Part shown: positions 6,031 through 51,759 of the stretch, piece after piece | How the letters are laid out: each line of letters starts with the position of its first letter | Numbering within the stretch: position 1 is the first letter of the stretch | NCBI GenBank assembly: GCA_011390365.1 | Contig: JAABSM010000021.1 | Span: forward strand, 1 to 51,822 | DNA length: 51,822 nucleotides | Source: Gammaproteobacteria bacterium | GTDB lineage: Bacteria > Pseudomonadota > Gammaproteobacteria > Chromatiales > Chromatiaceae | Direction: 5' to 3' | Notes under the pieces: model-generated | What the model was told of the DNA's origin: nothing | What the model saw: the letters and a program-made list of their open reading frames with translations, nothing else | Database searches by the model: none | Made by a program: the position numbers and the translations under genes

Positions 6031-6333
6031 GACGTTCATTTCCCTGTCGCGAATGCGCTGGCGCGCCGCCGCGTCTTCTCTAGTTCCAGTTGTCATTCGG
6101 GTGGCGGGGCCTTTCCATGCAAGCCGATGGGTAAATCGCTGGTCCATGGAAACCCGCTGGCGTGGGACGTATGCCGTCGCACGGACCGGCGCTGAAAGAG
6201 ATACCGGTCAAGCTGCTAGTAGTTTACACACTTTTTCAAGAATGAAAAGGGCAAGGATGACGAAATCAGCGGCTTAGACGATGCTTCTGAGCGGGGTTCG
6301 AATAAAAGACGCCCGGGGGGAGGTCGAGGCTTG

Positions 6334-6427
6334 CTGTGAATCTATCGCGGAGTGGCGCTCCTCGAAGGGCTGCCACCCCTTAGGCCGATTCATGTTCCGG
6401 GGCGGGGAACCGCTTCATGACCGTTAG
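6334..6427. repeat. Dispersed palindromic repeat, family A, copy 2
   Basis: It is collinear with 4-97: the same leading CTGTGAATCTA, an imperfect hairpin, and the same ending (TTCATGACCGTTAG). It lies just beyond the 3' end of the ABC transporter ATPase gene. Confidence 0.75.
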
Positions 6428-6452
6428 CCGGATCGAATCCGAACCGGGCCGC

Positions 6453-8444: not shown

Positions 8445-8448
8445 GGGG

Positions 8449-9870
8449 TTACACCGCCTCGCCCTGGGCCGCCAGCTTCTCGCCGCGCAGGCGCGGGTCG
8501 AAGGCATCCCGCACCACGTCGGAGAAGAGGTTGGCGGCCAGCACCAGGGTGAACATGAACAGGAAGGCGGCGCTCAGCGACCACCATACGATGGGCTCGC
8601 GGGCCATCTCCAGGCGCGCGCTGTTGATCATGTTGCCCCAGCTGTTAGTGGTGGGGTCGACGCCGATATTCACATACGAGAGCACCGCCTCCGCCAGCAC
8701 CAGCCCGGAGAAGTCGAGCACCACCGTGATCAGCACTATGTGGATGACATTGGGCAGGATATGCCGCAGGATGATCTGGAAATGGCCCACCCCGAAGGCC
8801 TGGGCCGCCTGCACATAGTCCAGCTCGCGCAGCTTGATCGACTCGCCCCGCAGCAGCCGACACAGCCCGGTCCAGCTGGTCACGCCCAGGATCAGGCACA
8901 GAAACAGCAGCCGCAGATCGGCCCGCTCCGCCACCGTGGCGTATTCGTCGGCGTGGTTGCTCATGTGGATCTGCAACATCAGGATCGCCGCGGCGATCAG
9001 CAACACCCCGGGGATGGAGTTGAGGGTGGTGTAGAGATACTGGATCACGTCGTCCGCCCAGCCGCGGAAATAGCCGGCCATGATCCCCAGCAGGATCGCC
9101 GCCGGCAGCATCACCAGGGTGGTCAATGTGCCGATCATCAGGCCGGTGCGAATGCTCTTCAGGCTCTGGTAGAGCACATCCTCGCCCACCTTGTCGGTGC
9201 CCAGCAGGTGGTATTTCAGGGAGAGCTCGGCGGCGACCGCGATCAGGATCAGCAGGATCGACAGGGTAACCAGAAAGGCGCCCCAGGGGATCTCGCAACG
9301 CCCGCCCGCCACCCGCCGCGCCATCTCGCCGAACCCCGTGCCATGGCCTCGCGCCAGACGCCAGATCAGCAGCGCCGCGATCGCCAGGCTCAGCAGCAGC
9401 CCCTCGAACAGCCCCCAAAGCGAGGTCAGCAACAGGTCCCGGCCATGCTCCGTCGCCGGGTCTTGCAGGTGCGCGCCGCCATGCGCCAGGCGGGGATAGT
9501 CCCGCACCATGGAGCCGTCCGGCTGGGTGATGTTTTCTTTTGAAAACAGGTGGGTCGCCAGCGGCGCGGAGTAGGTCTTCTCCTGCCGCTCGCGCAGCGG
9601 CGACAGGATCTCGTCGAGCAGGCTCACTACCTCCCCCGACTGGCCGTTGCCATCCTCCGCCCGCGGGTGGAAGTGGACCGAATCGAGCAGGCCGACGATG
9701 ATGTAAAAGGCCAGGATCGTCAGCGTCGAGATGCCGATGCGACTGCGCACCACCTGCCGCCAGGGCGCACGCAAATGCTCCCGTCGGGAGGCGTAAACAC
9801 CAAACCAGATCGCCCCGCCCACAAGGACGAAGAGCAACAGGTCGGTCCAGAGGAGTACCGGTTCGGGCAT
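8449..9870 (-). CDS. Oligopeptide-type ABC transporter permease (YejE/DppC-like)
   Basis: This 473-residue inner-membrane permease has the BPD_transp_1 core in its second half, with the coupling-helix region around EAAxxxG-like AAQAFGVG. An extra N-terminal helix pair and a large periplasmic segment (about residues 60-190) are as in long C-type permeases of YejE kind. It is followed after 4 nt by the fused ATPase. In the usual yejABEF order a binding protein and YejB-type permease precede this gene; here the 267 nt upstream hold no gene and the next gene is divergent. Either the partners are elsewhere or the transporter is incomplete. Confidence 0.9.
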   Translation of the reverse strand: MPEPVLLWTDLLLFVLVGGAIWFGVYASRREHLRAPWRQVVRSRIGISTLTILAFYIIVGLLDSVHFHPRAEDGNGQSGEVVSLLDEILSPLRERQEKTYSAPLATHLFSKENITQPDGSMVRDYPRLAHGGAHLQDPATEHGRDLLLTSLWGLFEGLLLSLAIAALLIWRLARGHGTGFGEMARRVAGGRCEIPWGAFLVTLSILLILIAVAAELSLKYHLLGTDKVGEDVLYQSLKSIRTGLMIGTLTTLVMLPAAILLGIMAGYFRGWADDVIQYLYTTLNSIPGVLLIAAAILMLQIHMSNHADEYATVAERADLRLLFLCLILGVTSWTGLCRLLRGESIKLRELDYVQAAQAFGVGHFQIILRHILPNVIHIVLITVVLDFSGLVLAEAVLSYVNIGVDPTTNSWGNMINSARLEMAREPIVWWSLSAAFLFMFTLVLAANLFSDVVRDAFDPRLRGEKLAAQGEAV

Positions 9871-23959: not shown

Positions 23960-26900
23960 ATGGCCAAGATACCCGTCAGGTACAGGAGAGCGGTCTTGCT
24001 GAGGAAATTTCGGTCGTTGTTTTCAGGGATGCTGTTGGCGGCGGCGATGGCGCTGCTGATCTTTTCTCCATGCGTGCATGCCCAGCCCCTGGAGCGGGCC
24101 ATGCCGATCACCTTCGGCGCGGACGCTTCACCGGATCAGGGGGACAACGATAACCGCCAGGAGATCCTGCTGCGGGTCGCGACAGATGAGGGGCGAACCC
24201 TCTACCTGCGTATCTTCGATCCCGACGTGGGCGGCGCGGTGGATGAGATCATGGGGGAGTGGAATACCGCTACCCGATTTTCGCTGTATGGCGGCGAGAT
24301 CGATATTCGCGCCGAGTACGCGGACGGGGATAACGCGACCGAGGCGGAGATCACGGGCGAGCTTCTTCACCAGCAGGATTTCGCCGAGGACCGGCTCCTC
24401 GACGGGCAGTGGTTCAATCTGGCCGAGTTTCAGGCCAGCCAGGGCCTGGAGAAGGATGGCGACCGGCTGTTCAAATTGGTGGTCGATGGCCTATCCGGTG
24501 ACGACGGCAATATCTTCGATCTCGCGGTGAGCGTGGATAGTCAGCGCAATATCGCGCCCGAGGGGCTGGAGATCTTCAGCTATCTGCCCACCGTGCATGT
24601 GCCCAAAGGCAGTGGACGTTTCGGTGAGGCGCGTTTTTTCGTGCCCGCCGGCGTGGCGGAGATAGCGGTACACAATTTCGACCTGGATCGGGCGTCGGTG
24701 TGGCTGGAGACGCCGTTTCGCCGGCTCGATACGGTCAACGCCTCGGCAAGCGGGGCCTGGGTGGTGGACAAGGTGACCCTCGATCCCTGGGAGCAGGGGA
24801 TGGAGAGCGCCATCAGTCTCGCCGCCTTTCCCAATACGGTGAATGACGCCACCTTCTATGTCACCAGCGCGGATGGTACACCGCTGGCGTTCAACTTTCC
24901 CTTTCGCCTCTTTCCTACCAATCATCGCCCCGAGCCGGCGGTTACCACCACCGTGCTGAACGATTGTCGCGAGGTGGTGTTCGACGCCTCCGCCTCCCGC
25001 GATGCGGATTTCGATCAGCTCTTCTTTGAGTGGCGAATCGGCGACCAGACCCTCTCCGGCAATCCCGTCAGTCACAGCTTCGAGGAGAGCGGCGGCCATC
25101 GCGTGCGGCTGACCGTGCGCGATGGCTCGGGGACGGTGGGCAGTCGCGCCCGCCAGGAGGTGGAGGTCTTTCTCAATCGCCCGCCCAGCGCCGTTATCGA
25201 GGCCCCGGAGCGGGCCATGCCCGGCGAAGAGGTGCGCTTTGACGCGACGGGGTCCCGGGATGAGGATGGCGAGATCAAGGACTATTTTTGGGATTTCGGC
25301 GATGGCGAGAAGGCCACCGGGGTCGCCGTCAGCCATCGCTATGCCCGGCCAGGTTACTATCGGGTGACGCTGCGGGTGGTGGACGATTCGGCCAGCCCCT
25401 GCGCCACCAGCGTCGAGCAGCGCCAGATCTGGGTCAATGCACCGCCCATCGTCATCGCCCCCGCCGACAAGCGCGGCGCGGTGGATGTGCCGGTCTCCTT
25501 CGAGCCGCAACGGGTCTATGATTCCGACTCCCAGGTGGAGAAGTTCCATTGGGATTTCGGCGACGGCAACCGGGCCGAGGGGCGGAGCGTGGCGCATCGC
25601 TTCGCCGCGCCGGGGGAGTACCTGGTTACCCTCGGCGTGGATGACGGCAGCGGCGTTGGCAACAGCCGCGCCGAGGATAGCCTGCGGGTGATCATCAACG
25701 ATCCGCCGCTGCCCGATGCCAACGCCGACAAGCGGATCGCCGCCAATCAGACGGTGCTGTTCGACGGCGGCGGCTCGACGGACCCGGATGGCGAGATCAT
25801 CGCCTATCGCTGGGAGTTCGGCGATAACGCCTCCGCCAGCGGCGCGCAAGTCAAGCACGCCTACGCCGAGCCCGGCGTCTATACCGCCCGCCTGACGGTG
25901 ACCGACGACTCCGGCACCGCCAGCGCGGTGCAATATGACGAGGCCCAGGTGATCGTCAACTTCCCGCCGCTGGCGGTCGCCGGCGAGGATCAGCATTTGC
26001 AGCGCTCCGTGGTGGCGTTCGATGCCGGCGCCTCCAGCGATGAGGATGGCGAGATCATCGCCTATCGCTGGCGCTTCGGCGATGGCCACGAGGGCGAGGG
26101 CGTCGCCCCCAGCCATGTCTACGCCAATCCTGGCGAGTACCCGGTCGATCTGGCGGTGGAGGACGATTCGGCCACCCTCAGCCGTTTCGACGCGGATCGA
26201 CTGGTGGTGCGGGTGAACGCCGGGCCGATCGCCGATCCGGGGCCGCCGGTGTCGGTGGAGCCGGGACAGGTGGTGATCTTCGACGGCTCCGGATCCGCCG
26301 ACGGCGATGGCGTGGTGCAACGCTACCACTGGCGCTTCGGCGATGGCAGCGAGGCGCACTGGCAGCGCATCGGCCACGCCTTCAAGGCCCCCGGCGTCTA
26401 TCCGGTGCGGTTGCGGGTCGGCGACGACTCCGGCCTGGCCGAGGCCTATGATGAGGGCGAGGTGACGGTGGTCGTCAACCAGCCGCCGCGGGCGGTGGTG
26501 CATGCCCCGGAGCGGGTCGCGCCCGGGGATCCGGTGTGGTTCGACGGCGGTGGCTCCCGGGATCCGGATGGCGAGATCGTCGACTGGCGTTGGCGCTTCT
26601 CCGATAACGAGACGCGCGCCGGCGAGGCGCGGGTGGAGCGTCGCTTCGACGCCCCGGGCGTCTACTACGCTGACCTCACCGTGGATGACGGCAAGGGGCT
26701 CGCCAACAGTGTCGCCCACGCCCGCGGCGTGGTCCAGGTCAACCACCAGCCGTTGGCGATTCCCGGCGCGGATGTGGAGAGTTGCGACACCACCCTGCTG
26801 TTCGACGCCAGCGCGTCGGTGGATGGCGACGGCGACGGCCTCAGCTACCACTGGGATTTCGGCGATGGCGCCAGCGCCAGCGGCGCGCGGGTCAGCCACA

Positions 26901-28852
26901 GTTATCAGCAGGGCGGCGTCTATCCGGTGGTGCTCAGCGTGGATGACGGGCAGGGGCTCTCCAACAGCCGTCACTCCGGCTCCCTCACCGCCACCATCAA
27001 TCAGCGGCCGCTGGCCGACGCCGGCGAGGATCGCACGGTATGCGCCGGCGACTCCATCGTCTTCAGCGGCGCCAACTCCATCGACCCCAAGGGGCGTTTC
27101 CTCAAGTACCACTGGTGGTTCGGCGATGGCGGCGAGGGCTACGGGGTCAACCCGGTGCGGATCTTCCGCGAGGCCGGCGTCTATCCGGTGCGGTTGCTGG
27201 TGGAGGATGATAGCGGGCTGGCCTGCGGGCGGGATACGGATAGCATGGTGTTGCGGGTCGCCGAATCCCCCATCGCCGATGCCGGCGAGGATATCGAGAC
27301 CTGCGCCAATACCGAGATCACCTTCGATGGCGGCGGCTCCCGCGACGCCGACGGGCTGGTCAACCGTTTCGCCTGGGACTTCGGCGACGGCGCGGAGGGG
27401 GGCGGGCCTTCGCCCAGCCACATGTACCTCGAACCGGGCGAGTATCAGGTGCGTCTGACCATCACCGGCGATCGCATCGGCAGCTGCGACAACCGCGATA
27501 CGGACCGGATCAAGGTCAAGGTACACGCCGCGCCGAAGGCGGTGATCCATGCCCCCAGCCAAGCCGCGGTGGAGCAGGTCGTAACCTTCGATGCCAGTGC
27601 TTCCGAGGGAGGCGGGGCCGACATCGTCTCCTGGGAGTGGGATTTCGGCGACGGCGAGCGGGCGAGCGGCGAGCGGGTGGAGCACGCCTACGCCCAACCG
27701 GGCCGCTACTACATCAGCCTCAAGGTCACCACCGATAGCGGCAGTCAGTGCGATCAGGTCACCCAAAGCTCGGTGATTACCGTCAATGCCCCGCCGGTGG
27801 CGCGGGGCAAGGTCCCCGAGGCGGGTGCGATCCACCAACCGCTGCGTTTCGACAGCGGCGAATCCAGCGATCCCGACGGCGCCGTCGCCAATCATATCTG
27901 GGATTTCGGCGACGGCGAACGGCTGGAGGGGGTGCAGGTCGCCCATGCCTATCGCGCGGCTGGCGAATATGAGGTACGGTTGCGGGTCGAGGATGACTCC
28001 GGCCAGAGTAACGGCAGTGACGAACAGCGCTTCACGATTCGGATCAACGCCCCGCCCCAGGCCCGCATCGCCGCCCCGGCGGTGGCCTGCCGCGGAGAGG
28101 AGGTCGCGTTCGACGCCAGCGCCAGCAAGGATCCAGACGGCGTTATCGAGGGCTTCGACTGGGTCTTCGGCGACGGACTCACCGGCGAGGGGGAGCGGAT
28201 TCGCCATCGCTATCCCCGCGCCGGGCGCTATCAGATCGGCCTGCGGGTGGAGGATGACAGCGGCGTCGCCAACCGCCGCGGTTTCGCCAGTCATCCGCTA
28301 CGCATCAACCGCCCGCCGCGCGTGAATCTGCTTGCGCCCGCCCAGGCTTGCGCGGGTGAAGCGCTAGCCTTCGATGGTGGCGGCTCGCTGGACCCCGATG
28401 GCGACGCCATCGCCCTGTCCTGGGCTTTTGGCGACAATGCCACCGCCGCGGGCGAGATGGTGGAGCATGTCTATTCGGAGCCCGGGTCGTATTCCGTCAC
28501 CTTGCGTGCGGAAGACGACAGCGGATCCGCCTGCGCGGTGGCCGAGACGACCACCGAGGTGCGGGTCAACCACCCGCCACAGGCGGTGGCGGGCGAGGAT
28601 CGGGAGACCTGGATCGGCGGCGCTCACGACCTGGTGATGTTCGACGCCTCCGCCAGCCAGGATGTCGATGGCGAGCGACTCGGCTACCACTGGGATTTTG
28701 GCGACGGCGCGACCCAACGGGGAGAACGAGTTAGGCACCGCTACGTCAGTCCGGGAAGTTATCAGGTCGTGTTGACCGTGGATGACGGCAGCGGCCTGAG
28801 CTGCGGCGTCGCCAGGGATACCGTTACGGTGGAGGCGCGGTTGAGGGAGTGA
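23960..28852 (+). CDS. Large secreted protein with about fifteen PKD-like repeats
   Basis: A 1630-residue protein with a Sec signal peptide (hydrophobic stretch about 22-36, probable cleavage after VHA at about 41). An N-terminal domain (about 42-320) is of no family I recognise. From about 325 to the end it is built of tandem PKD-type beta-sandwich units, each about 85-90 residues, with DxDG, W-x-FGDG and HxY landmarks; I count fifteen, the first and seventh being degenerate. There is no membrane anchor, sorting signal or autotransporter barrel at the C-terminus, which ends with the last unit. PKD domains usually mediate protein or polysaccharide contacts, so an extracellular adhesive or structural role is likely, without evidence for a ligand. 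No secretion genes are adjacent. Confidence 0.88.
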   Translation: MAKIPVRYRRAVLLRKFRSLFSGMLLAAAMALLIFSPCVHAQPLERAMPITFGADASPDQGDNDNRQEILLRVATDEGRTLYLRIFDPDVGGAVDEIMGEWNTATRFSLYGGEIDIRAEYADGDNATEAEITGELLHQQDFAEDRLLDGQWFNLAEFQASQGLEKDGDRLFKLVVDGLSGDDGNIFDLAVSVDSQRNIAPEGLEIFSYLPTVHVPKGSGRFGEARFFVPAGVAEIAVHNFDLDRASVWLETPFRRLDTVNASASGAWVVDKVTLDPWEQGMESAISLAAFPNTVNDATFYVTSADGTPLAFNFPFRLFPTNHRPEPAVTTTVLNDCREVVFDASASRDADFDQLFFEWRIGDQTLSGNPVSHSFEESGGHRVRLTVRDGSGTVGSRARQEVEVFLNRPPSAVIEAPERAMPGEEVRFDATGSRDEDGEIKDYFWDFGDGEKATGVAVSHRYARPGYYRVTLRVVDDSASPCATSVEQRQIWVNAPPIVIAPADKRGAVDVPVSFEPQRVYDSDSQVEKFHWDFGDGNRAEGRSVAHRFAAPGEYLVTLGVDDGSGVGNSRAEDSLRVIINDPPLPDANADKRIAANQTVLFDGGGSTDPDGEIIAYRWEFGDNASASGAQVKHAYAEPGVYTARLTVTDDSGTASAVQYDEAQVIVNFPPLAVAGEDQHLQRSVVAFDAGASSDEDGEIIAYRWRFGDGHEGEGVAPSHVYANPGEYPVDLAVEDDSATLSRFDADRLVVRVNAGPIADPGPPVSVEPGQVVIFDGSGSADGDGVVQRYHWRFGDGSEAHWQRIGHAFKAPGVYPVRLRVGDDSGLAEAYDEGEVTVVVNQPPRAVVHAPERVAPGDPVWFDGGGSRDPDGEIVDWRWRFSDNETRAGEARVERRFDAPGVYYADLTVDDGKGLANSVAHARGVVQVNHQPLAIPGADVESCDTTLLFDASASVDGDGDGLSYHWDFGDGASASGARVSHSYQQGGVYPVVLSVDDGQGLSNSRHSGSLTATINQRPLADAGEDRTVCAGDSIVFSGANSIDPKGRFLKYHWWFGDGGEGYGVNPVRIFREAGVYPVRLLVEDDSGLACGRDTDSMVLRVAESPIADAGEDIETCANTEITFDGGGSRDADGLVNRFAWDFGDGAEGGGPSPSHMYLEPGEYQVRLTITGDRIGSCDNRDTDRIKVKVHAAPKAVIHAPSQAAVEQVVTFDASASEGGGADIVSWEWDFGDGERASGERVEHAYAQPGRYYISLKVTTDSGSQCDQVTQSSVITVNAPPVARGKVPEAGAIHQPLRFDSGESSDPDGAVANHIWDFGDGERLEGVQVAHAYRAAGEYEVRLRVEDDSGQSNGSDEQRFTIRINAPPQARIAAPAVACRGEEVAFDASASKDPDGVIEGFDWVFGDGLTGEGERIRHRYPRAGRYQIGLRVEDDSGVANRRGFASHPLRINRPPRVNLLAPAQACAGEALAFDGGGSLDPDGDAIALSWAFGDNATAAGEMVEHVYSEPGSYSVTLRAEDDSGSACAVAETTTEVRVNHPPQAVAGEDRETWIGGAHDLVMFDASASQDVDGERLGYHWDFGDGATQRGERVRHRYVSPGSYQVVLTVDDGSGLSCGVARDTVTVEARLRE

Positions 28853-40103: not shown

Positions 40104-43100
40104 TCAGGCGTTGGCGACCAGCGGGCGTTTGGCGTTTTCGCAGCGTTCGATGTAGACCGCGGCGGCGCCGTCTTCCGGGTGGGCGGCGATGACGGCCTCG
40201 AAGGCCGTTTGCGCGGCGTCGATGTCGGCGTCCTGAAAAAGGCGTACCGCCGCCTCGAAGCGGGCCAGGGTCTGCTCCTTGAGATGGCGGGACTCCTCCG
40301 GGTCGGCGTCGAAGACCTCGTAGACGGTGACCGGGATGTTCTTGCCCCGCACCTTGACCGTGTCCAGCTCCCGTACCAGGTGTTGGTGGTCCTTGGGCAG
40401 GGCCTTGAGGGTGTGTTCGGAGATCAGCAGCGGCACGCGGTAGAGCTTGGTCAGCCCCTCGATGCGGGAGGCGAGGTTGACGGTGTCGGAGATCACCGTG
40501 CCGTCCATGCGATTGCTGCCGCCGACGGTGCCGAGCATGAGTTGCCCGGTATTGAGGCCGATGCCGATGCGAATGGTATCCTGGCCCCGCTCCCGGCGTT
40601 TGAAGTTGAAGTCGTCGAGCTTGAACAGCATCTCCACCGCCCCCTGCACCGCGTCCGCCGCGCCGCTGGGGAAGAGGGCCATGATGGCGTCGCCGATGTA
40701 CTTGTCGATGAAGCCCCGGCGCTGGGTGATCACCGGCTCCATGCAGCTCAGGTAATTGTTGATGAAGTTGTAGGTCTCCTGGGGCGTCAGCTTTTCGGAG
40801 AGGGTGGTGAAGGAGCGGATGTCGGAGAAGAGCACGGTCATGTTGCGGGCCACCTGATCGCCGAGCCGTACATCCATGATGCTCTCCTTGTCGAGCAGTT
40901 GCAGAAACTGGTGGGGCACGAAGCGGCTCAGGGCCACATTCACGTTATGCAGGTAGATGTGGGTCTTGACCCGCGCCAGCAGCTCGTCCTTGGAGACCGG
41001 TTTGGTGAGGTAGTCGTTGGCCCCCACGCTGAAGCCCTCGACGATATCCCGGGTCTGATTCTTGGCGGTGAGCATCAGCACCGGCAGTTCCGAGGCGGGC
41101 AGGTATTCGCGCAGCCGGCGGCACACCTCGAAGCCGCTGATCTTGGGCATCATCACATCCAGCAGCACCAGGTCGGGACGGTAGCCCGACTCCAGCTTCT
41201 CCAGCGCCTCCATGCCGGTGGCCGCCCGTTCCACCCGGTAATTGAGGTGGGAGAGGTGGTTGGAGAGCACTTGCAGATTCACCGGTTCGTCGTCGACGAT
41301 GAGGATGTCGAAGGTATGGGCGCCGGCGGCGTAGGTGAGGGCGGTCTGGGTCAGCTCCTGCAACGCCTCGTCGTCCAGGGCGTCATCATCCAGCAGGTAA
41401 CGGGGCAGGGCGATGCGCCTCGCATCGGCCTGCGCTACCGGCAGGGTGAAGTAGAAGGTGGAGCCCTTGCCGGGTTCCGACTCGAACCAGATCTCGCCGC
41501 CATGCAGCTCTACCAGTTGGCGGGTGACCGCCAGACCCAGGCCGGTGCCGCCGAACTCCCGTTCGGCGGAACCGTCTCCCTGCTCGAAGGAGTGGAAGAT
41601 GGTCTCTCGTGCCGAAGCGGGGATGCCGATACCGGTATCCCGCACCCCCACCACCAGACGTCGCGATGGATCCAGGTCGGGATTCTCCCCCTTGACGGGC
41701 AGCATGGAGGGATTACAGGCTTCGCCGCGGGCGAACACCACCACCTCCCCTTCACGGGTGAACTTGATGGCGTTACCTACCAGATTGTAGAGGATCTGTT
41801 GCAGGCGGTCTTCATCCGCGAAGGCGGGCGGCAGTTCCTCCGGGATGTGCTGGTGGACTTGCAGCGGCTTGCCCCCGATCAGCGGTCGGCTGAGGGTGAT
41901 CACCAGGTCCAGCGAGCCTTGCAGGTCCACCGCCTTGAGCTTGAGTTCGAGGTTTTTGTGCTTGAGCTTGGAGAAATCGAGGATATCGTTGACCAGACTG
42001 GCGAGACGCCGGCCGCTGGACATGATCATCAGCAGGTTCTTCTTCTGCTCGGCGCTGACCTCGCCGGCGGCGCCGTCGATCAGCGACTCGGCCAGGCCGA
42101 TGATGCCGTTCAGCGGCGTGCGCAACTCGTGGGAGGTGTTGGCCAGAAACTCGTCCTTCAGCTTGTCCGCCCGTTCCAGGTTCTGGATCGCCAGTTCGCG
42201 GTTGGCCAGCGCCTCCGCCTGGGCGTGCTCCTTCTGTTCCAGGGATTGTTTGAGATCCCGGGCCATGGCGTCGAAACGATGGGCCAGGTAACCGATCTCG
42301 TCCTTGCGGTGGATGCCGATACGGCTGTCGAGGCGGCCCTCGCCGATGCGTCGCGCGGCGTCCGCCAGTTGATGGATGGGGTTGATCAGCAGGTGGCTGA
42401 GCAATAGCAGCAGCGAGGTGACGATGATCAGGATGGCGGCGAGGGTGATGGCGAGTACCACCCAACCGAGCTTGCGTCCCGCCGCCTCAATCTCGGCCAG
42501 GGGCAGTTGTGTGTGCAGCACCAGGTCCTCACTGACGCGACGGGCGGTATGCAGGTAGCCATCGGCGTGAATGCTCGCGGCATCGCCATCCTCAAGGGCG
42601 TCGATGATCTTCCGGGGGGCCAGTTCGCCGAGGCGCGCGCCGTCGTCGTGAAACAGGATGCGTCCGCCGCCATCACTGAAATAGAGCATGCCCCTCTGGC
42701 CCACCCGATTGCCCGCCAGCTCCTTGAGCAGGTCGAGACTCACGGTGAGCGCCAGATAGCCCCGCAAACTGGGGATCTGGGCGTCGGCCCCGGTGGAGGA
42801 GAGGTCGGCGAGCACCAGTCGTTGGCTCGCCCACAGCGCCGGCGCGTCCGTGTCCGGGTTGTGAAAGAGGCGCACGAAGGTATCCCCCGCGGCCTGGTGC
42901 ATCGCCTGAAAGACGGGGCTCTCCCCCTCTTCGTCGCTGACGTTGGCGATGCGTTCGCCGGTGTAGCGGGCGTCTTCGTAGCCGTCGGGGAGGATCACGC
43001 GAATCTCGTAATAGTCGGGAAAGGCCCGGTTGTAGGCGGCGAACAGGCGCAACAGGGGCATTTGCAGCAGTTCGAAGCGATCCGCCTCGGAGGCGAGGAT

Positions 43101-43328
43101 GTAGCTCTTGAGCATGCGCGAATCGGCGAACAGGCCGAGATTGGCGCGCAGGGTGCGCAGAAAGGTCCGCACCCGTTGCTCGGTCTGGGTGGCCAGGGTA
43201 TCCACATGCCCCAGCACCGCCTTTTCGCTGGTGTCGCGCAGGCGATCATAGGCCAACCAGCCGATGCTGGCGATGGGCGCGACGATCAGGGGGACGAGAA
43301 AGAGCAGGATCTTGGTGTTGAGTTGCAT
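40104..43328 (-). CDS. Cache-HAMP-histidine kinase-receiver-adenylyl cyclase fusion
   Basis: The 1074-residue inner-membrane signalling protein has a helix at about 5-25, a periplasmic double-Cache-like sensor (about 30-300) and a second helix (about 305-330). A HAMP domain follows (about 330-385), then HisKA with H400 (SHELRTPLNG), HATPase with GTGLGL, a receiver with D724 (LLDVMMP) and a class III nucleotide cyclase (about 830-1010; metal Asp D836 in FSDIRSF, then DKYIGDAIMALF and SDTVNLASRIEG). The Lys and Asp at the base-selecting positions suggest ATP as substrate. Cyanobacterial CyaC has a related order. The start at 43328 gives a proper first helix. It lies 32 nt after the PotD-like gene, so both probably act together. 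Confidence 0.92.
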   Translation of the reverse strand: MQLNTKILLFLVPLIVAPIASIGWLAYDRLRDTSEKAVLGHVDTLATQTEQRVRTFLRTLRANLGLFADSRMLKSYILASEADRFELLQMPLLRLFAAYNRAFPDYYEIRVILPDGYEDARYTGERIANVSDEEGESPVFQAMHQAAGDTFVRLFHNPDTDAPALWASQRLVLADLSSTGADAQIPSLRGYLALTVSLDLLKELAGNRVGQRGMLYFSDGGGRILFHDDGARLGELAPRKIIDALEDGDAASIHADGYLHTARRVSEDLVLHTQLPLAEIEAAGRKLGWVVLAITLAAILIIVTSLLLLLSHLLINPIHQLADAARRIGEGRLDSRIGIHRKDEIGYLAHRFDAMARDLKQSLEQKEHAQAEALANRELAIQNLERADKLKDEFLANTSHELRTPLNGIIGLAESLIDGAAGEVSAEQKKNLLMIMSSGRRLASLVNDILDFSKLKHKNLELKLKAVDLQGSLDLVITLSRPLIGGKPLQVHQHIPEELPPAFADEDRLQQILYNLVGNAIKFTREGEVVVFARGEACNPSMLPVKGENPDLDPSRRLVVGVRDTGIGIPASARETIFHSFEQGDGSAEREFGGTGLGLAVTRQLVELHGGEIWFESEPGKGSTFYFTLPVAQADARRIALPRYLLDDDALDDEALQELTQTALTYAAGAHTFDILIVDDEPVNLQVLSNHLSHLNYRVERAATGMEALEKLESGYRPDLVLLDVMMPKISGFEVCRRLREYLPASELPVLMLTAKNQTRDIVEGFSVGANDYLTKPVSKDELLARVKTHIYLHNVNVALSRFVPHQFLQLLDKESIMDVRLGDQVARNMTVLFSDIRSFTTLSEKLTPQETYNFINNYLSCMEPVITQRRGFIDKYIGDAIMALFPSGAADAVQGAVEMLFKLDDFNFKRRERGQDTIRIGIGLNTGQLMLGTVGGSNRMDGTVISDTVNLASRIEGLTKLYRVPLLISEHTLKALPKDHQHLVRELDTVKVRGKNIPVTVYEVFDADPEESRHLKEQTLARFEAAVRLFQDADIDAAQTAFEAVIAAHPEDGAAAVYIERCENAKRPLVANA

Positions 43329-43360
43329 GGGATTGTGCCGCGGCGTTCGGCGAGATGGGG

Positions 43361-44431
43361 CTATTGCTCGACGAGGCGTGCGTGAAAGGAGTTCCAGCGT
43401 TTCAGGGTGCGCGGTCGCTTGGGCGTGAGAAACTCGGAGCGCTGGATGACGTCGGCGGGGGGGTGGATGATGGGGTCCTCGCGATGCCCTTCGGAGAGCA
43501 GCGGCTCGGCGTCCCGGTTGGTGCTGGCGTAGTAGAGGGTCTCGGCGGTGCGCGCCGCCATCTCCGGCCGTTGCAGGAAGTCGAGAAAGGCGTGGGCCAG
43601 CTCGGGCTGCCTGCTCTGGGCGCTGATGGAGAGATAATCGCACCACAGCAGGGCGCCCTCTTCGGGGACCACGAAGGAGAGCGGATGGTCGTCGGCGTTC
43701 TCCTTCAATAACAATGCGTCGCCGTTGTAGGTCACCGCCATCCACACCTCGCCGGCGACCAGTTTGGACTCGTTGGTAAGGTCGGGATAGGCGTAGTCAT
43801 GGACATGGGGGCGCTGACTGAGCAGCAACGCCGTTGCCTGATCGAACGCCTCCTTGCTTTCGTCGTTGAGGGAGCGGCCCTGGGCCTTCAGGCTCACGCC
43901 GACCAGCTCCAGCATATCCGGGGGCATCTGGATCTTGCCGCGCCATTCGGGGCGGGGCTCAAGGAGGTCGCGCCAGCTCCGCGGCGGCTCGCCCACCAGG
44001 TCCTGGCGATAGACTATGCCCATGGTGCCCCACAGATAGGGAGAGCCGTAGGTCGCGGACTGGTCGAAGGCGTCGATCCAGCGCTCTTCCACATGTTCGA
44101 GATGGGGCAGCAGTCCCTTGTCGAGGGGCGTCAGCCAGTTGCGCCGCGCATAGGAGGCGATGGAGCTGCCCGGCACCAGAATGACGTCGAATCCCCGCCC
44201 GCCGGTGGTGATCATCAGCTCGGTGGTCTCATCCTCGGTGGCGAAATAGACCTGCTTGACGCGGGCGTTGTGCTGCTTCTCGAACGCCTCGATCACCTGC
44301 TGGTCGACGTACTCGTTCCAGTTGAGGAATACCAGTTCCCGGGGCGGATCGGCGGGGGCTTGATCGGCGTGACTCCAAGGGTTTACGAAGACCACGGTCG
44401 CGACGAGCAGGAGTTGGGTCAGTGATCTCAT
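43361..44431 (-). CDS. PotD/PotF-like periplasmic polyamine-type binding protein
   Basis: The 356-residue protein has a signal peptide (about 3-22) and a type II periplasmic-binding fold. Family landmarks are FLNWNEYVDQQVIEAF, the hinge-region SPYLWGTMGIVY, TYNGDA and LLWCDYLS. The last corresponds to the W/D pair that contacts the amine in PotD; the Trp before NG in PotD is Tyr here. No ABC permease or ATPase is adjacent. The next gene encodes a sensor kinase-cyclase, so the protein may present its ligand to the sensor rather than a transporter. The start at 44431 follows a purine-rich stretch. Confidence 0.9.
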   Translation of the reverse strand: MRSLTQLLLVATVVFVNPWSHADQAPADPPRELVFLNWNEYVDQQVIEAFEKQHNARVKQVYFATEDETTELMITTGGRGFDVILVPGSSIASYARRNWLTPLDKGLLPHLEHVEERWIDAFDQSATYGSPYLWGTMGIVYRQDLVGEPPRSWRDLLEPRPEWRGKIQMPPDMLELVGVSLKAQGRSLNDESKEAFDQATALLLSQRPHVHDYAYPDLTNESKLVAGEVWMAVTYNGDALLLKENADDHPLSFVVPEEGALLWCDYLSISAQSRQPELAHAFLDFLQRPEMAARTAETLYYASTNRDAEPLLSEGHREDPIIHPPADVIQRSEFLTPKRPRTLKRWNSFHARLVEQ

Positions 44432-44726: not shown

Positions 44727-45581
44727 ATGAGCGACGGAAAGAGAACCGATCTGCCGGTAGTGGGTAGCGGTCTGGCGGTCAGCGCCGACCTGCATCGCAA
44801 AGCGGTGCGCGGGGCCTACGAGCAGGTGGCGGCGGCGAGCAACACCGGCGACTGCTGCGGTGTGGAGTCGAGTTGTTGCGGGGTCTCCGACGACGTCGCC
44901 ATCAACACCCTGATCTCTACCCGGCTGGGTTATTCGGAGGAAGATCTCGCCAACGTGCCGAGCGGGGCCGATATGGGGCTGGGGTGCGGCAATCCCCGCG
45001 CCATCGCCTCCCTGAAGGCGGGGGAGACGGTGCTCGATCTCGGCGCCGGCGGCGGCTTCGACTGCTTTCTCGCCTCGCCAGAGGTGGGAGAAGAAGGGCA
45101 TGTGATCGGCGTCGACATGACCCCGGAGATGCTCTCCAAGGCCCGCCAAAACGCCGAGCTGGGACGCTTTGCCAACGTCGAGTTTCGCCTCGGCGAGATC
45201 GAATACCTGCCGGTAGCGGACAACACCATCGACGTGATCATCTCCAACTGCGTCATCAACCTCTCGCCGAACAAGGCCCAGGTCTTTCGCGAGGCGTTTC
45301 GGGTGCTCAAGCCCGGCGGCCGGCTGGCCATCTCCGACGTGGTGGCGACCATCGAGCTGCCGGAGGAGATGCGCAACGACCCGCAATTGATCGCCGGCTG
45401 CATGGGCAACGCCTCCCTCATCGAAGAGCTGGAAGGCTTCATGAGCGAGGCCGGCTTCGTCGACCGCCGCATCGAACCCAAGGAGTCCTCCCGGGAATTC
45501 ATTCGCGATTGGGCGCCGGGCCGCGGCGTGGAGGACTACGTGGTCTCCGCCACCATCGAAGCGATCAAGCCGGTGCGCTGA
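44727..45581 (+). CDS. arsM: Arsenite S-adenosylmethionine methyltransferase
   Basis: The 284-residue cytoplasmic enzyme methylates As(III). It has the CC pairs near the N-terminus (DCCG, SCCG), GLGCGNP, the SAM motif VLDLGAGGGFD and the arsenic-binding Cys of SNCVINL. A further Cys in AGCMGNA completes the conserved set. GCAGGAGATAGCG precedes the ATG. No arsR or other ars gene is adjacent; the DegV-family gene follows after 2 nt. Confidence 0.95.
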   Translation: MSDGKRTDLPVVGSGLAVSADLHRKAVRGAYEQVAAASNTGDCCGVESSCCGVSDDVAINTLISTRLGYSEEDLANVPSGADMGLGCGNPRAIASLKAGETVLDLGAGGGFDCFLASPEVGEEGHVIGVDMTPEMLSKARQNAELGRFANVEFRLGEIEYLPVADNTIDVIISNCVINLSPNKAQVFREAFRVLKPGGRLAISDVVATIELPEEMRNDPQLIAGCMGNASLIEELEGFMSEAGFVDRRIEPKESSREFIRDWAPGRGVEDYVVSATIEAIKPVR

Positions 45582-47468: not shown

Positions 47469-47651
47469 TACAATCCCTTGTGCTACATGTATCGAATCGT
47501 CAGGCCGGATTATACCCCAAGTGCGCAACCCAACCATCGCCTCGTCCTGGCATGCGGCGCGGCCTTGGTCAATCCTCGAATATTGGAATCAGTATGAAAA
47601 TAGTCATTTAAGCCTGGAAATGTGAAGCGCGTCACCTACATTCTCCGGCGC

Positions 47652-47670
47652 GGGGACATCTCCTGTCCCC
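47652..47670. repeat. Hairpin upstream of cas3
   Basis: 7-bp arms 47652-47658 and 47664-47670 (GGGGACA/TGTCCCC). It lies 45 nt before the cas3 start and may be a dispersed palindrome or part of the leader. Confidence 0.45.
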
Positions 47671-47714
47671 CTGGTGGAGTAGTATGGGCTTCAGTCCAAA
47701 AGAGGTATATGTAC

Positions 47715-50435
47715 ATGGATGAGCGGAGTTACATCGCGTATTGGGGCAAAGCGGAACGGGATGGTGATGGCTTCCACCGACTGGTCTATCACTGTCTGGA
47801 TGTAGCCGCCTGCGGCCAGCGATTGCTGGAGCGGCATAGGGGCCTGAGCCAGTCCCTCGCCCGTTTGAGCGGGTTGAACGAACAGACCCTCGCCGCCTGG
47901 GTCCGCTTTTTCCTCGCCACCCACGACATCGGCAAATTCACCAGCGCCTTTCAAGGGCTGCGCCCCGATCTGATGCCGGCGGGCTGCATCTCCAACGCCC
48001 CCTACGACCCGCGCCACGACTCCCTCGGCTTCTTTCTTTGGCAGGACAAGCTGTCCGGATCGCTGTGGGAGAAGGATCTCTTCGGCTTGGCCGAGAAAGG
48101 CGACGAAGATGAATGGTTCGATCTGCTCGACCACTGGGCGCGGGCGGTCACCGGCCACCATGGTCAGCCGCCCAAGGATGCGAGGTTCAGCCTGGGGGCG
48201 TATTTCTCCCCCGCCGACCTGGAGGCCGCCGAGGCCTTCGCCCTGGACTTGTCGGAGCTGTTTCTTGCCAACGCCCCGAACATCGACTGGCCCGAACCCG
48301 ACCAATGGCTTCAGCCCACCAAGGAGTTCTCCTGGTGGCTCGCCGGCTTCGCGGTGCTCGCCGACTGGCTGGGTTCCAATCAGGATTTTTTCCCCTTTTG
48401 CGGCGAGCCCATGCCCCTGGAGCGCTATTGGCAAGAGATCGCCTTGCCCAAAGCAGGCAAGGCCATCGAACAGGCCGGTCTGCTGCCGGGCATGACCGCT
48501 GGCCGACAGGGCCTCTCGGAGCTGTTCGATGGGTTCGATACGCCCACACCGCTCCAGGCCTTCTGCGAACGACTCGAACCCACCGGCGAGCCCGAGTTGC
48601 TGATTCTGGAGGATGTCACCGGCGCGGGCAAGACCGAGGCCGCCTTCTTGCTGCTCAATCGCCTGCTGGCGGTCGGCGCGGGGCAGGGCGCCTATCTGGC
48701 GCTGCCCACCATGGCCACCGCCAACGCCATGTATGGCCGCACCGGCAAGGTCTACCGCCGGCTGTTCGAAGGCGAGACTGAGCCCTCGCTGGTGCTGGCC
48801 CACGGCAGCCGCCAGCTGCATGACGGCTTTCGCCGCTCCCTGCTAACCGAGTCCGCCGGCGGCGATGCCTATGAAAAGGGCGAGGCCAACGCCCAGGCCC
48901 ACTGCAACGCCTGGATCGCCGACAACCGCAAGCGCGCCCTGCTCGCCCAGATCGGCGTAGGCACCATCGATCAGGCCCTGCTCGCGGTGCTCACCTCTCG
49001 CCACCAGTCGCTGCGCCTGCTCGGTCTGCTGGGCAAGGTGCTGGTGGTGGACGAGGTGCATGCCGCCGACGACTACATGCTCGGACTGTTACGGCGACTG
49101 CTGCGCATCCACGCCCGCGCCGGCGGCAGCGCCATCCTGCTCTCCGCCACCCTGCCGCAGCGCATGCGCCGCGAATTGGCCAAGGCCTTTCGCGAAGGCC
49201 TGGACGCGCCCACGGCGGAACTCGACTCCACCGATTACCCCCTGGTCACCCGCATCCGCCGCGACGGGGTGGACGAAGAGAGGGTCGATACCCGGGAAAG
49301 CGTGAAACGTAATCTCCGCTTCAACAGCCTGCGCACATTCGAGCAGGTCATCGACTGGATCATCGCCCAGAGCGAGGCCGGCCAGTGCATCGCCTGGGTG
49401 CGCAACACCGTGGGCGACGCCATCGAGGCCTTCGAAACCCTGCTGGCAAGGCTCCCCGCGGAACGGCTCGACCTGTTTCACGCCCGCTTCGCCCTCGGCG
49501 ACCGGCTGGCCATCGAAGACCGGGTGCTGGAGACCTTCGGCAAGGCGAGCGGTGGCCAAGGGCGCAAGGGCCGGGTGCTGATCGCCACCCAGGTGATCGA
49601 GCAATCCCTCGACCTCGACTTCGACCAAATGGTCAGCGACCTCGCCCCCATCGACCTACTGATCCAGCGCGCCGGCCGCCTGCGCCGCCACTGCCGTTCC
49701 CTGGATGGCGATCCCGTCGAAGGCCCGGACCAGCGCGGCGAACCCTGCCTGCATCTACTGGCCCCCGACCCTACTGACAACCCGGACGCCGAATGGTACG
49801 CCCGTCGCTTTCCCAGTGGGGCCTATGTCTACCCCAACCACGCCCGGCTCTGGCTCACCGCCAATCTGCTGGAGAGCAAACAGACACTGGCCATCCCCGA
49901 AGACCTGCGGACCGCGGTAGAGACGGTCTATTCCGAGGATTCCGACGCCGGCCTGCCCGACGGGCTGATGGAAAACTACTGGGACGCCGACGGCGAGGCC
50001 CGCGCCCAGGCCTCCCTGGCCCAAGCCAACACCATCCCCTTCGAGCAGGGTTACAACTATCGGGGAACTGACTGGTGGGAAGACACCCACACCCCCACCC
50101 GCCTCGGCGACCGGACCATCACCCTGCGCCTGGCGCGCTGGGACGGCGAAAGGTTGCGGCCCTGGAGTGAGCAAGCAGAAAACGCCTGGTCCCTCAGCGA
50201 AGTGAACATCCGCCACAAACTGGCGGCCCAGGAGGCCCCGGCGGCATCCTCAAAGCTGGCCGAGGCGCGAAAGAACCTCAAGGAGAGCTGGCCGCGCAAG
50301 GGCGAGGGCTACCTGCTGATCCCCCTCACCGAAGACAACGAAGCCTGGACTGGAGAAGCCATCAACGAACGCGGCGACACGGTGACAATCCGCTACACCG
50401 AACGCCACGGCCTGACAGTGGAAAAACCCGCGTAG
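47715..50435 (+). CDS. cas3: CRISPR-associated helicase-nuclease Cas3 (type I-E-like)
   Basis: The 906-residue protein shreds DNA marked by Cascade. The N-terminal HD nuclease has H26 (YHCLDVAA) and H70-D71 (LATHDIGKF). The helicase has motif I TGAGKTE (about 302-308), DEVH at 446-449, SATLP (about 477) and QRAGRLRRH as motif VI. The opening YWGKAERDG and YHCLDVAA resemble type I-E Cas3. AGAGG precedes the ATG at 47715 with good spacing; 47709 is an alternative. No other cas gene or CRISPR array is in the window, though they could lie beyond its right end. The TAG stop is part of a palindromic element. Confidence 0.93.
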   Translation: MDERSYIAYWGKAERDGDGFHRLVYHCLDVAACGQRLLERHRGLSQSLARLSGLNEQTLAAWVRFFLATHDIGKFTSAFQGLRPDLMPAGCISNAPYDPRHDSLGFFLWQDKLSGSLWEKDLFGLAEKGDEDEWFDLLDHWARAVTGHHGQPPKDARFSLGAYFSPADLEAAEAFALDLSELFLANAPNIDWPEPDQWLQPTKEFSWWLAGFAVLADWLGSNQDFFPFCGEPMPLERYWQEIALPKAGKAIEQAGLLPGMTAGRQGLSELFDGFDTPTPLQAFCERLEPTGEPELLILEDVTGAGKTEAAFLLLNRLLAVGAGQGAYLALPTMATANAMYGRTGKVYRRLFEGETEPSLVLAHGSRQLHDGFRRSLLTESAGGDAYEKGEANAQAHCNAWIADNRKRALLAQIGVGTIDQALLAVLTSRHQSLRLLGLLGKVLVVDEVHAADDYMLGLLRRLLRIHARAGGSAILLSATLPQRMRRELAKAFREGLDAPTAELDSTDYPLVTRIRRDGVDEERVDTRESVKRNLRFNSLRTFEQVIDWIIAQSEAGQCIAWVRNTVGDAIEAFETLLARLPAERLDLFHARFALGDRLAIEDRVLETFGKASGGQGRKGRVLIATQVIEQSLDLDFDQMVSDLAPIDLLIQRAGRLRRHCRSLDGDPVEGPDQRGEPCLHLLAPDPTDNPDAEWYARRFPSGAYVYPNHARLWLTANLLESKQTLAIPEDLRTAVETVYSEDSDAGLPDGLMENYWDADGEARAQASLAQANTIPFEQGYNYRGTDWWEDTHTPTRLGDRTITLRLARWDGERLRPWSEQAENAWSLSEVNIRHKLAAQEAPAASSKLAEARKNLKESWPRKGEGYLLIPLTEDNEAWTGEAINERGDTVTIRYTERHGLTVEKPA

Positions 50436-50774: not shown

Positions 50775-51002
50775 ATGACGCACACGAATACCTCGATTCC
50801 CATGCCAGACAAGATCCCGTTTCTAAAAGCCATCTGCTGGCAAACCGCCGATGTACGCCATTTTACCCCGGAGGAGGCGCTGGCCCGTTACGAACGCGGC
50901 TGGACCTACCGCGGCGTACTGGAAGACCTGAAAGGAGAGGAGCTGGATTATGTGCGCGCACTTGCCCGGACGTTCGGCTCCTGGATACAAAATGTCGTTT
51001 GA
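50775..51002 (+). CDS. Small protein preceding an AbiEii-like gene (possible antitoxin)
   Basis: The 75-residue protein contains FTPEEALARYERGWTYRG and ends LARTFGSWIQNVV. I do not recognise a family with certainty. Its 3' end overlaps the next gene by 11 nt, which is typical of toxin-antitoxin pairs. Its partner being a nucleotidyltransferase makes an antitoxin role plausible, but it is not an AbiEi-type protein. Confidence 0.75.
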   Translation: MTHTNTSIPMPDKIPFLKAICWQTADVRHFTPEEALARYERGWTYRGVLEDLKGEELDYVRALARTFGSWIQNVV

Positions 51003-51759
51003 TCACCCCCACCACCAAATGATACACCGCGTTCTGGAGGCCCTGGATCGCGACCTTCTCATACGCACCCGCAGCTATTTCGGGGGCGGCACGCTCATCG
51101 CTTTGCAACATGATGAATACCGCTGGTCGAAGGATATCGACTTCGTCTGTCCGGTCGGGCCTGGGTACCGGGAGCTTCGCACGGTCGTCATGGATGGCGG
51201 GGTAGAGGCGCTGTTTCATTCACCGGCAAAGGTTGACCTCCCTCGGGGAGGGATGGTCGATCAATACGGCGTTCGGATGGCCGTGACCCTGGAAGGCTTC
51301 GATGAAATCCTGAAGCTGGAAATCATCGCCGAATCGCGAATCGATCTCGATCCTCCGGAAAACCTTGAATGGTCTCCAGTGCCGGTCTTGAGTCTGACGG
51401 ATCGGTTCGCCGAAAAACTCCTTGCCAACGCCGACCGTTGGGCGGATCGGGCCATGGAGGCCCGCGATCTCATCGACCTGTGCGTTCTTCGCCTTCATGC
51501 CCCGATCCCGCAAAAGTCTATCATCAAGGCGGAAAACGCCTACCCGGTCATGGAGCCGCTGCGCCGCGCAATACAGGGCTTTCAGGACAATCCAGGCTAC
51601 CGCGACACCTGCTTCACCCAATTACAAGTGCGCAGTCCCCGCCACATCATCAATGGACTCGACCTGCTGGCAAGCGACCTGGATCTGCATCCCACCCATC
51701 GAACCGCGTTCGAGGCGGGGCCGGAAGATGAAGTCTCCAGCGATGCGCAGGGGCGCTAA
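50992..51759 (+). CDS. AbiEii/AbiGii-type nucleotidyltransferase (possible toxin)
   Basis: The 255-residue protein has the nucleotidyltransferase pattern GGGT (G31-T34) followed by SKDIDF (D48, D50), and a helical C-terminal half. AbiEii-family proteins act as toxins or phage-defence enzymes that modify tRNA or other targets. It overlaps the small upstream gene by 11 nt; the start at 50992 gives this overlap. The pair lies just behind cas3, between direct repeats. Confidence 0.85.
   Translation: MSFDHPHHQMIHRVLEALDRDLLIRTRSYFGGGTLIALQHDEYRWSKDIDFVCPVGPGYRELRTVVMDGGVEALFHSPAKVDLPRGGMVDQYGVRMAVTLEGFDEILKLEIIAESRIDLDPPENLEWSPVPVLSLTDRFAEKLLANADRWADRAMEARDLIDLCVLRLHAPIPQKSIIKAENAYPVMEPLRRAIQGFQDNPGYRDTCFTQLQVRSPRHIINGLDLLASDLDLHPTHRTAFEAGPEDEVSSDAQGR

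Follow-up and report, generated by a model that had tools for sequence, protein, structure and literature searches.

A PotD/NspS-type binding protein encoded beside a kinase-receiver-adenylyl cyclase: a candidate cAMP branch of the NspS-MbaA receptor family

The closest described relatives of the locus studied here are the NspS-MbaA pairs of Vibrio cholerae and Sinorhizobium meliloti, already known as polyamine sensors that work through c-di-GMP. Norspermidine-bound NspS is thought to act through association with MbaA, as one study has it (PMC8967002). In NspS-MbaA, as in the pair reported here, the gene for a PotD-like substrate-binding protein (SBP) lies directly upstream of the receptor gene, with no transporter genes at the locus. 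Our pair lies on a 51,822-nt stretch of DNA (the window) from a gammaproteobacterium of the Chromatiaceae (GCA_011390365.1, contig JAABSM010000021.1), and its receptor joins a histidine kinase (HK), a receiver (REC) and a class III cyclase in a single chain (Table 1).

The initial annotation had read the two genes as a PotD-like SBP followed by a Cache-HAMP-kinase-receiver-cyclase protein, with no permease gene alongside. The pair is real: its coordinates, gene order, 32-nt spacer, domain string and PotD/PotF resemblance were all verified. No window ORF of at least 80 amino acids matched E. coli PotB, PotC, PotH or PotI at E 1e-3, and the sole ABC ATPase match in the window (6456-8507) is about 32 kb from the pair. 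The SBP matches SBP_bac_8 (E 2.8e-28), begins with a signal peptide (judged by eye) and has PotD and PotF as its nearest named families. The receptor carries the HisKA histidine, HATPase domain and receiver aspartate of a hybrid histidine kinase, with H400 and D724 found at the positions first assigned to them. Spacers of 49 nt or less separate SBP and receptor in 65 of 71 pairs (by ORF call), and from the length of its own spacer the window pair is predicted to be co-transcribed; a promoter scan found no site upstream of the SBP gene on its strand.

Table 1. Features of the SBP-receptor pair, in window coordinates.
Feature	Extent	Position	Strand	Basis or predicted role
SBP gene, PotD/NspS-type, ATG start	356 aa	43361-44431	-	predicted periplasmic ligand-presenting subunit
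Spacer, SBP stop to receptor start	32 nt	43329-43360	-	one transcript predicted
Receptor gene, TM-Cache-TM-HAMP-HisKA-HATPase-REC-class III cyclase	1074 aa	40104-43328	-	domain search and residue inspection
Sensor module: TM1, periplasmic Cache-like domain, TM2	aa 1-308	42405-43328	-	homologous to NspS-clade receptor sensors
TM1	about aa 7-27			
TM2	about aa 287-308			
HAMP	aa 309-360	42249-42404	-	domain search
HisKA and HATPase, phospho-acceptor H400	aa 391-632	41433-42158	-	domain search and residues
HisKA	aa 391-456			
HATPase	aa 505-632			
Receiver (Response_reg), phospho-acceptor D724	aa 675-788	40965-41306	-	domain search and residues
Class III cyclase (Guanylate_cyc)	aa 827-998	40335-40850	-	domain search, residues, structure matches

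The relationship to NspS is seen in an SBP tree of 169 rows (quick search, SH-aLRT support, no bootstrap), in which NspS is represented by the S. meliloti protein (L130). A single split with SH-aLRT 100 sets 84 SBPs, which include that of the window and S. meliloti NspS, against 85 of the PotD/PotF type. On the NspS side 77/84 SBPs are encoded directly upstream of a receptor and 0/84 in a potABC operon, whereas 77/85 on the PotD/PotF side are in pot operons and 0/85 beside such a receptor. Chance adjacency of SBP and receptor was discarded on these counts (77/84 versus 0/85). Of 37 positions that the clade conserves, the window SBP retains 35. Three clade SBPs have no adjoining receptor (the window genome's own paralog, L044, plus L263 and L273), in one case a receptor lacks an SBP (L300), and the SBP gene is interrupted at L045, L234, L113 and probably L108; the window-type SBP is absent from the same-genus genome G001 (89% complete). 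The initial annotation had proposed, as a check, to look in relatives for conserved adjacency of such SBPs with kinase-cyclase proteins and for the absence of potABC. Adjacency to a receptor is indeed conserved and pot genes are lacking beside the clade relatives, but among the receptors compared the kinase-cyclase partner was found in the window only. The comparison it had drawn with NspS-MbaA is stronger than it knew, with SBPs that share a clade and sensors that are remotely homologous.

We consider it likely that the two genes form one NspS-type signalling unit, in which the SBP presents a ligand and gates phosphotransfer and cAMP synthesis. The exported SBP would capture a small periplasmic ligand, probably an amine, and in one of its conformations would dock on the receptor's Cache-like domain in the periplasm, not on a transporter. 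Docking would alter the receptor via the HAMP domain and set autophosphorylation at H400. From there the phosphate would move to D724 in the receiver that is built into the chain, and this receiver would control the fused cyclase, the ligand level being read out as cAMP; control would run from the SBP inwards.

The pair could also work as proposed with a ligand other than a polyamine, such as GABA, 5-aminovalerate or some further amino compound, and we regard this as a serious possibility, if short of probable. In everything but the ligand it agrees with the signalling unit described above. Two SBP_bac_8 proteins of Pseudomonas aeruginosa encoded near kinases, PA0602 and PA4985, had been predicted to bind polyamines; in one study they prefer GABA, then 5-aminovalerate, and PA0602 is reported not to bind spermidine or putrescine (PMC11113362). 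The window SBP also has P87 and L133 at the norspermidine-contact positions D90 and F131 of NspS, and T69-T70 where the clade has Arg in 80/84 and Asp in 75/84. The loss of this near-invariant Arg-Asp pair may have changed the ligand or the docking. PotD/PotF-type rows have Arg at window position 69 in 0/85 cases and mostly differ at positions 118, 142 and 213. Arguing for a polyamine, six of the eight NspS contact positions, in V. cholerae numbering transferred via S. meliloti NspS by an offset of our own, are identical in the window SBP (W38, D67, Y235, D238, W263, D265), and E175 is kept as well.

The sensor of the window receptor is, as judged from profile comparisons, a remote homologue of MbaA sensors. 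It shares 27-38% identity with those of 18 relatives that have differing outputs. A profile of 70 sensors, whose matches span about the first 80-170 residues (the N-terminal part of the sensor), was run over 2035 ORFs and placed nine of ten receptors of the MbaA or GGDEF-only type higher than all non-members, and a comparison of profile against profile gave E 9e-8 over 278 columns. In single-sequence hhalign comparisons the unrelated kinase L305 (E 0.0026) scored as well as MbaA of S. meliloti (E 0.0028), and unrelated L303 gave E 0.097; MbaA is thus not told from a control by this approach. The dCache_1 match in the window receptor (24.4 bits) falls under the Pfam cut-off of 45, which several relatives exceed (L043, 48.8; L046, 50.5; L251, 58.1 bits). 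Searched alone against solved structures, the window sensor matched nothing better than E 0.05; a profile of 19 sensors matched the solved Cache domain 9hvj at E 6.2e-6. Sensors are co-inherited with their SBPs, with a Mantel r of 0.87 between the distances of 68 pairs (best of 999 permutations, 0.10), although co-inheritance alone is no proof of contact. Direct ligand binding is common among Cache domains. This would suit a receptor whose Cache domain binds the ligand itself while the SBP serves for its buffering or delivery, or responds to a second ligand, with no gating by docking, and a review cites the polyamine-binding dCache protein McpU (PMC8846402). We find such an arrangement unlikely, given that SBPs and sensors are inherited together whatever the output type and that norspermidine-bound NspS is thought, in the study cited above, to work by association with MbaA (PMC8967002).

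Beyond the shared input, the outputs of the clade receptors vary: GGDEF-EAL, HK, HK-REC, HK-REC-Hpt, HK-REC-GGDEF, SpoIIE phosphatase and HK-REC-cyclase. The window unit is probably a rewired member of this receptor family, in which one SBP and sensor input serves many outputs, the c-di-GMP enzymes of MbaA included. The HK-REC-cyclase output was found in the window only among the relatives examined, in a search where each listed genome offered 33 to 183 candidate places and 5 of these were scored, so further cases could have been missed. The window receptor sits loosely in the sensor tree. Its HK-REC part groups with SBP-linked HK-REC-GGDEF receptors at SH-aLRT 100 (a quick tree with long-branch warnings), a group that equally takes in two 7TMR-DISM kinases (L301 and L302) in no settled branching order; the cyclase part has its nearest relatives (48% and 47%) in GAF-cyclases with different architectures.

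The cyclase domain has the full residue set of a class III adenylyl cyclase: D836 and D880, which we take to be the metal aspartates, K876 and D948, presumably for adenine choice, and N951 and R955, presumably for the transition state. Among solved cyclases it can be aligned with 3r5g (CyaB, E 2.7e-25), and 1wc0 and 1wc1 also matched; we infer that its product is cAMP. The intact catalytic residues thus support the combined phosphotransfer and cAMP output that the initial annotation had suggested. Genome-wide there are 13 class III cyclase matches, this one counted in, and 32 cNMP-binding matches, 27 of them over the cut-off and one in a Crp-type regulator (L297). Another reading makes the kinase-receiver the working output, with phosphotransfer to other regulators and a minor or inactive cyclase. 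In its favour, the sensor tree has 33 rows with a kinase, and in 27 of these the chain stops at HK, HK-REC or HK-REC-Hpt, with no cyclase; we doubt it in view of the catalytic residues and the alignment with solved cyclases.

That the SBP is an orphan transport subunit serving the genome's PotABC, beside an unrelated kinase-cyclase by accident, is highly improbable and was rejected on the clade split and operon context: PotD/PotF are its nearest named families and a complete, separate potABCD operon is present (L048), but that operon already includes a PotD of its own (32% identity to the window SBP), and the window SBP falls outside the transport clade, in company found beside receptors (77/84) and never in pot operons (0/84). 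Transport is covered by this separate operon, and the window pair, with no linked potA-, potB- or potC-type genes, lies apart from PotABCD and PotFGHI.

Returning to the signalling unit, we lean towards a broader interpretation, in which NspS-MbaA is one branch of an output-modular family with a PotD-derived SBP and a co-inherited Cache sensor as fixed input. Its outputs would range from c-di-GMP enzymes through histidine kinases, phosphorelays and a SpoIIE-type phosphatase to, here, a kinase-receiver-adenylyl cyclase that would convert an amine-type signal into cAMP via internal phosphotransfer. The modularity and the cAMP branch would be new; we know of no earlier SBP-gated receptor by which an amine-type signal from outside the cell leads to cAMP in this way. 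NspS-MbaA would then be seen as one instance of a periplasmic plug-in input with exchangeable outputs. How one SBP-Cache complex could drive unrelated enzymes through HAMP becomes a question for natural material, and family members could be ready-made donors for chimeric receptors. The clade also suggests a signalling role for a set of SBPs that could easily be annotated as polyamine transporters, and these can be recognised by clade and residue signature. To our knowledge few bacterial class III cyclases have a known signal, and the pair would give them an extracellular ligand.

Among known systems, PotD/PotF transport SBPs share the fold family and core amine-binding residues of the window SBP but belong to another clade, mostly in pot operons. 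Arthrospira CyaC likewise combines kinase, receiver and class III cyclase in one chain; we know of no SBP partner for CyaC-like receiver-coupled cyclases, and their sensor differs. The AgtS and AruS kinases of P. aeruginosa, likened here by description and not by sequence, also have an SBP_bac_8 gene nearby; the available text mentions no cyclase, and contact between AruS and its SBP was sought there by two-hybrid and not seen (PMC11113362). Closer are the HK-REC-GGDEF receptors L042, L235, L238 and L234, with SBPs of the same clade (that gene being interrupted in L234), a homologous sensor and an HK-REC part 44-52% identical to that of the window, which differ in ending with GGDEF in place of the cyclase. 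Strict membership in NspS-MbaA was rejected for want of GGDEF-EAL in the window receptor: MbaA ends in these c-di-GMP domains, the window receptor in HisKA-HATPase-receiver-cyclase, and their sensors are about 15% identical by profile alignment, with two of the eight NspS pocket positions changed. What the two share is an SBP clade that includes S. meliloti NspS and a two-TM, HAMP-bearing receptor whose sensor is of common, if remote, descent.

The PotD/NspS-type solute-binding protein (SBP) of the window and its adjoining membrane receptor form a genuine signalling pair, intact in both partners; its output is unusual, and a wider family stands behind it. The initial annotation had read an SBP gene 32 nt ahead of the gene for a kinase-receiver-cyclase receptor carrying H400 and D724, and ORF calls and Pfam matches bear this out. 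GC content is even over both genes (0.64). The SBP matches SBP_bac_8 in Pfam (E 2.8e-28), and the NCBI models PotF and PotD match it far under their cut-offs (121/636 and 115/582 bits, respectively); it also matches solved PotD/PotF-type proteins, Lmo0810 (4gl0, E 1.2e-41) best among them. Two hydrophobic segments of the receptor (about residues 7-27 and 287-308) flank a periplasmic region and are followed by Pfam HAMP, HisKA, HATPase, receiver and class III cyclase domains. H400, D724 and the cyclase residues D836, K876, D880, D948, N951 and R955 are all present, and the cyclase domain matches the solved cyclases CyaB (3r5g, E 2.7e-25) and 1wc1 (E 3.9e-17). The Cache domain is sub-threshold in Pfam for the window receptor alone and over the cut-off in several relatives. 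No good solved match was found for the window sensor by itself, and a profile of 19 sensors finds 9hvj, a Cache domain protein of solved structure (E 6.2e-6).

Features of the window and of related loci
Feature	Sequence	Coordinates	Strand	Remarks
SBP gene	window	43361-44431	-	356 aa; ORF call
Receptor gene	window	40104-43328	-	1074 aa; ORF call
Methyltransf_31 gene	window	44727-45581	+	divergent from SBP gene, about 295 nt off; presumably ArsM-like
Cas3 gene (HD + helicase)	window	47622-50435	+	near contig end
AbiEii-type nucleotidyltransferase	window	50950-51759	+	near contig end
ORF with 15 PKD-domain stretches	window	23960-28852	+	1630 aa
Second SBP of receptor clade	L044 (own genome, C31)	6082-7200		no receptor adjoining
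SpoIIE-type receptor	L253	2080-4077	+	Pfam
SpoIIE-type receptor	L257	2701-4698	-	Pfam
SpoIIE-type receptor	L260	2959-4974	-	Pfam
SpoIIE-type receptor	L274	3016-4998	-	Pfam
REC-PAS-HisKA-HATPase protein	L093	6224-8905	+	no membrane sensor; after long-branch clade SBP
Interrupted clade SBP gene	L234	5016-6341	-	adjoining receptor still open
Interrupted clade SBP gene	L045	7083-8264	+
Interrupted clade SBP gene	L113	2261-3418	+	adjoining receptor still open
HK-REC-GGDEF receptor of the window receptor's family	L300	3168-6221	+	no SBP gene adjoining

None of the window ORFs was found to encode a Pot permease, and a double ABC ATPase is encoded about 32 kb from the gene pair. Elsewhere in the genome (L048) potABC is complete and is accompanied by a PotD that is 32% identical to the window SBP, so transport is covered there. 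The genome also has 13 class III cyclase matches, the window's included, and 32 cNMP-binding matches (27 over the cut-off), one of them in a Crp-type regulator (L297); the cNMP-binding proteins are plausible receivers of cAMP. The window receptor is the sole match to its sensor domain in the genome, with no second copy found. The second SBP of the receptor clade (L044) follows argininosuccinate synthase, and the next gene resembles, by eye, thioredoxin reductase. This SBP might serve a distant receptor.

SBP relatives were searched for in partly overlapping sets: 56 relatives, 369 genomes of the class, 211 of the order, 398 of the phylum, 48 of another class in the phylum, and the best 80 loci of a contig search. 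The genes around each SBP received labels from BLAST comparison with references taken from the window, the receptors and the E. coli Pot proteins, and 40 proteins from the loci were scanned with Pfam; because only 25 of these are receptors homologous to the window's, most output labels rest on BLAST. Removing six fragments (two each from L045 and L234, one each from L046 and L113) and two duplicates from 175 SBP records, and adding E. coli PotD and PotF, left 169 rows. In their tree (quick search, no bootstrap), one split (SH-aLRT 100) parts 84 SBPs of the receptor clade from 85 PotD/PotF-type rows on the transport side. On the latter, 77 rows lie in pot operons (judged by a Pot-type match above 90 bits no more than 5 kb away, or by annotation for the two E. 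coli proteins) and eight do not, and none adjoins a receptor of the NspS-clade type.

Directly downstream of the 84 clade SBPs are receptors ending in GGDEF-EAL (30), HK (12), HK-REC (12), SpoIIE (4), HK-REC-Hpt (3), HK-REC-GGDEF (3) and HK-REC-cyclase (1, the window); these automatic labels overlook extra domains, such as Hpt in L252 and L258 and two HK-REC units in L251. Labels assigned by hand add nine MbaA-type receptors (S. meliloti, other rhizobia and Stutzerimonas) and one with GGDEF only, and two receptors are cut or of undetermined type (L105, L233). The other seven SBPs have no receptor directly downstream: two stand at contig ends (L254, L280), one has a divergent receptor (L267), one adjoins a kinase that lacks the family's sensor (L093), and three have none at all (the own-genome paralog L044, L263 and L273). 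Conserved adjacency, which the initial annotation had suggested as a test for kinase-cyclase proteins, holds for receptors in general (7/84 lack one downstream) and fails for the kinase-cyclase form, found in the window only (1/84). Pot-type matches occur within 5 kb of a single clade SBP (L112), where two ABC ATPases (119 and 96 bits) adjoin a receptor-linked SBP; at loci that stop at contig ends, an absence of pot genes has limited meaning. The SpoIIE-ending Cache receptors, with their PP2C-like phosphatase domain, add a further output to this input module. The genome with the stand-alone receptor L300 gave no SBP match at E 1e-20. The breaks in the clade SBP genes of L234, L045 and L113 are those of the assembled sequences.

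Within the order, 25 of 211 genomes carry the SBP at E 1e-53 or better: 16 with GGDEF-EAL, four with HK-REC-GGDEF (one, G437, with an interrupted SBP gene), two with HK-REC or HK-REC-Hpt, one with a cut receptor, one with a broken SBP and no receptor (G003), and the window's own. An uncultured Lamprocystis, classed in Chromatiaceae, has an SBP (L110 and L242) with full identity in the compared stretch, a hint to the family of the window.

The window sensor is 27-38% identical to the sensors of 18 relatives and carries the motif PDYYEIRxxLPDGYEDAR, which is close to the sensor consensus. Against 2035 ORFs, a 70-sensor profile recovered all 70 members and then two further true members (L300, L267). 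Next came nine of ten MbaA-type or GGDEF-only receptors (E 7e-10 to 0.0042); the remaining one, L118, at E 0.069, ranked under one unrelated ORF (0.03). The MbaA-type matches span about the first 80-170 residues, including TM1, and the sensor and MbaA-type profiles align with 94% probability (E 9e-8, 278 columns, 15% identity). In single-sequence comparison S. meliloti MbaA (E 0.0028) cannot be told from a kinase unrelated to it (0.0026); the value for an unrelated cyclase was 0.097. SBP and sensor distances correlate over 68 pairs (r 0.87; highest of 999 permutations, 0.10) and over the 2129 distant pairs only (r 0.51), which shows that the two are inherited as a unit and does not imply contact. 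On the 70-receptor sensor tree, whose bootstrap had not settled, six output labels ('cut' included) change nine times, against a minimum of five and a shuffle mean of 31; outputs were therefore exchanged a few times.

The window receptor itself is a mosaic, because its HK-REC and cyclase parts have different nearest relatives. The HK-REC part shares 44-52% identity with HK-REC-GGDEF receptors of its own family, and the tree joins it to these (SH-aLRT 100) in a group that also holds two 7TMR-DISM kinases (48% and 50% identical) and whose internal branching order is not settled. The cyclase part is closest to a HAMP-PAS-GAF-cyclase (L303, 48%) and a kinase-AAA-GAF-cyclase (L304, 47%); its search listed 16 places besides the window, and the four of them scanned with Pfam (L303, L304, L323 and L326) have no histidine kinase. 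A cyclase may have taken the place of a GGDEF domain, or a kinase-cyclase that already existed may have acquired the sensor.

The clade has 37 positions with conservation of 88% or more; the window SBP keeps 35 of them and differs at T69 and T70 only. Position 69 is Arg in 80/84 clade SBPs and in none of the 85 transport-side rows, and position 70 is Asp in 75/84. This Thr-Thr pair follows shortly after D70, one of the NspS contacts, so the ligand or docking of the window SBP may differ. Eight norspermidine contacts are predicted in Vibrio NspS, all kept in S. meliloti NspS (PMC9993111). Mapped through the latter protein, the window SBP keeps six (W38, D67, Y235, D238, W263 and D265) and changes two (D90 to P87, F131 to L133). 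The ligand is likely an amine, perhaps a polyamine.

The mechanism of Vibrio NspS-MbaA, a PotD-like SBP with a receptor ending in GGDEF-EAL, is described in PMC8967002. Among the literature matches listed, mostly open papers (PMC11113362, PMC9602780 and PMC8846402 included), none was seen to describe a kinase-cyclase paired with an NspS-type SBP. The S. meliloti survey (PMC9993111) accepted pairs with at least 30% identity, at least 60% coverage and no more than 20 bp between genes, and such criteria can overlook receptors whose outputs are different. It lists pairs from Desulfuromonas and Shewanella, genera also met here (L104, L111).
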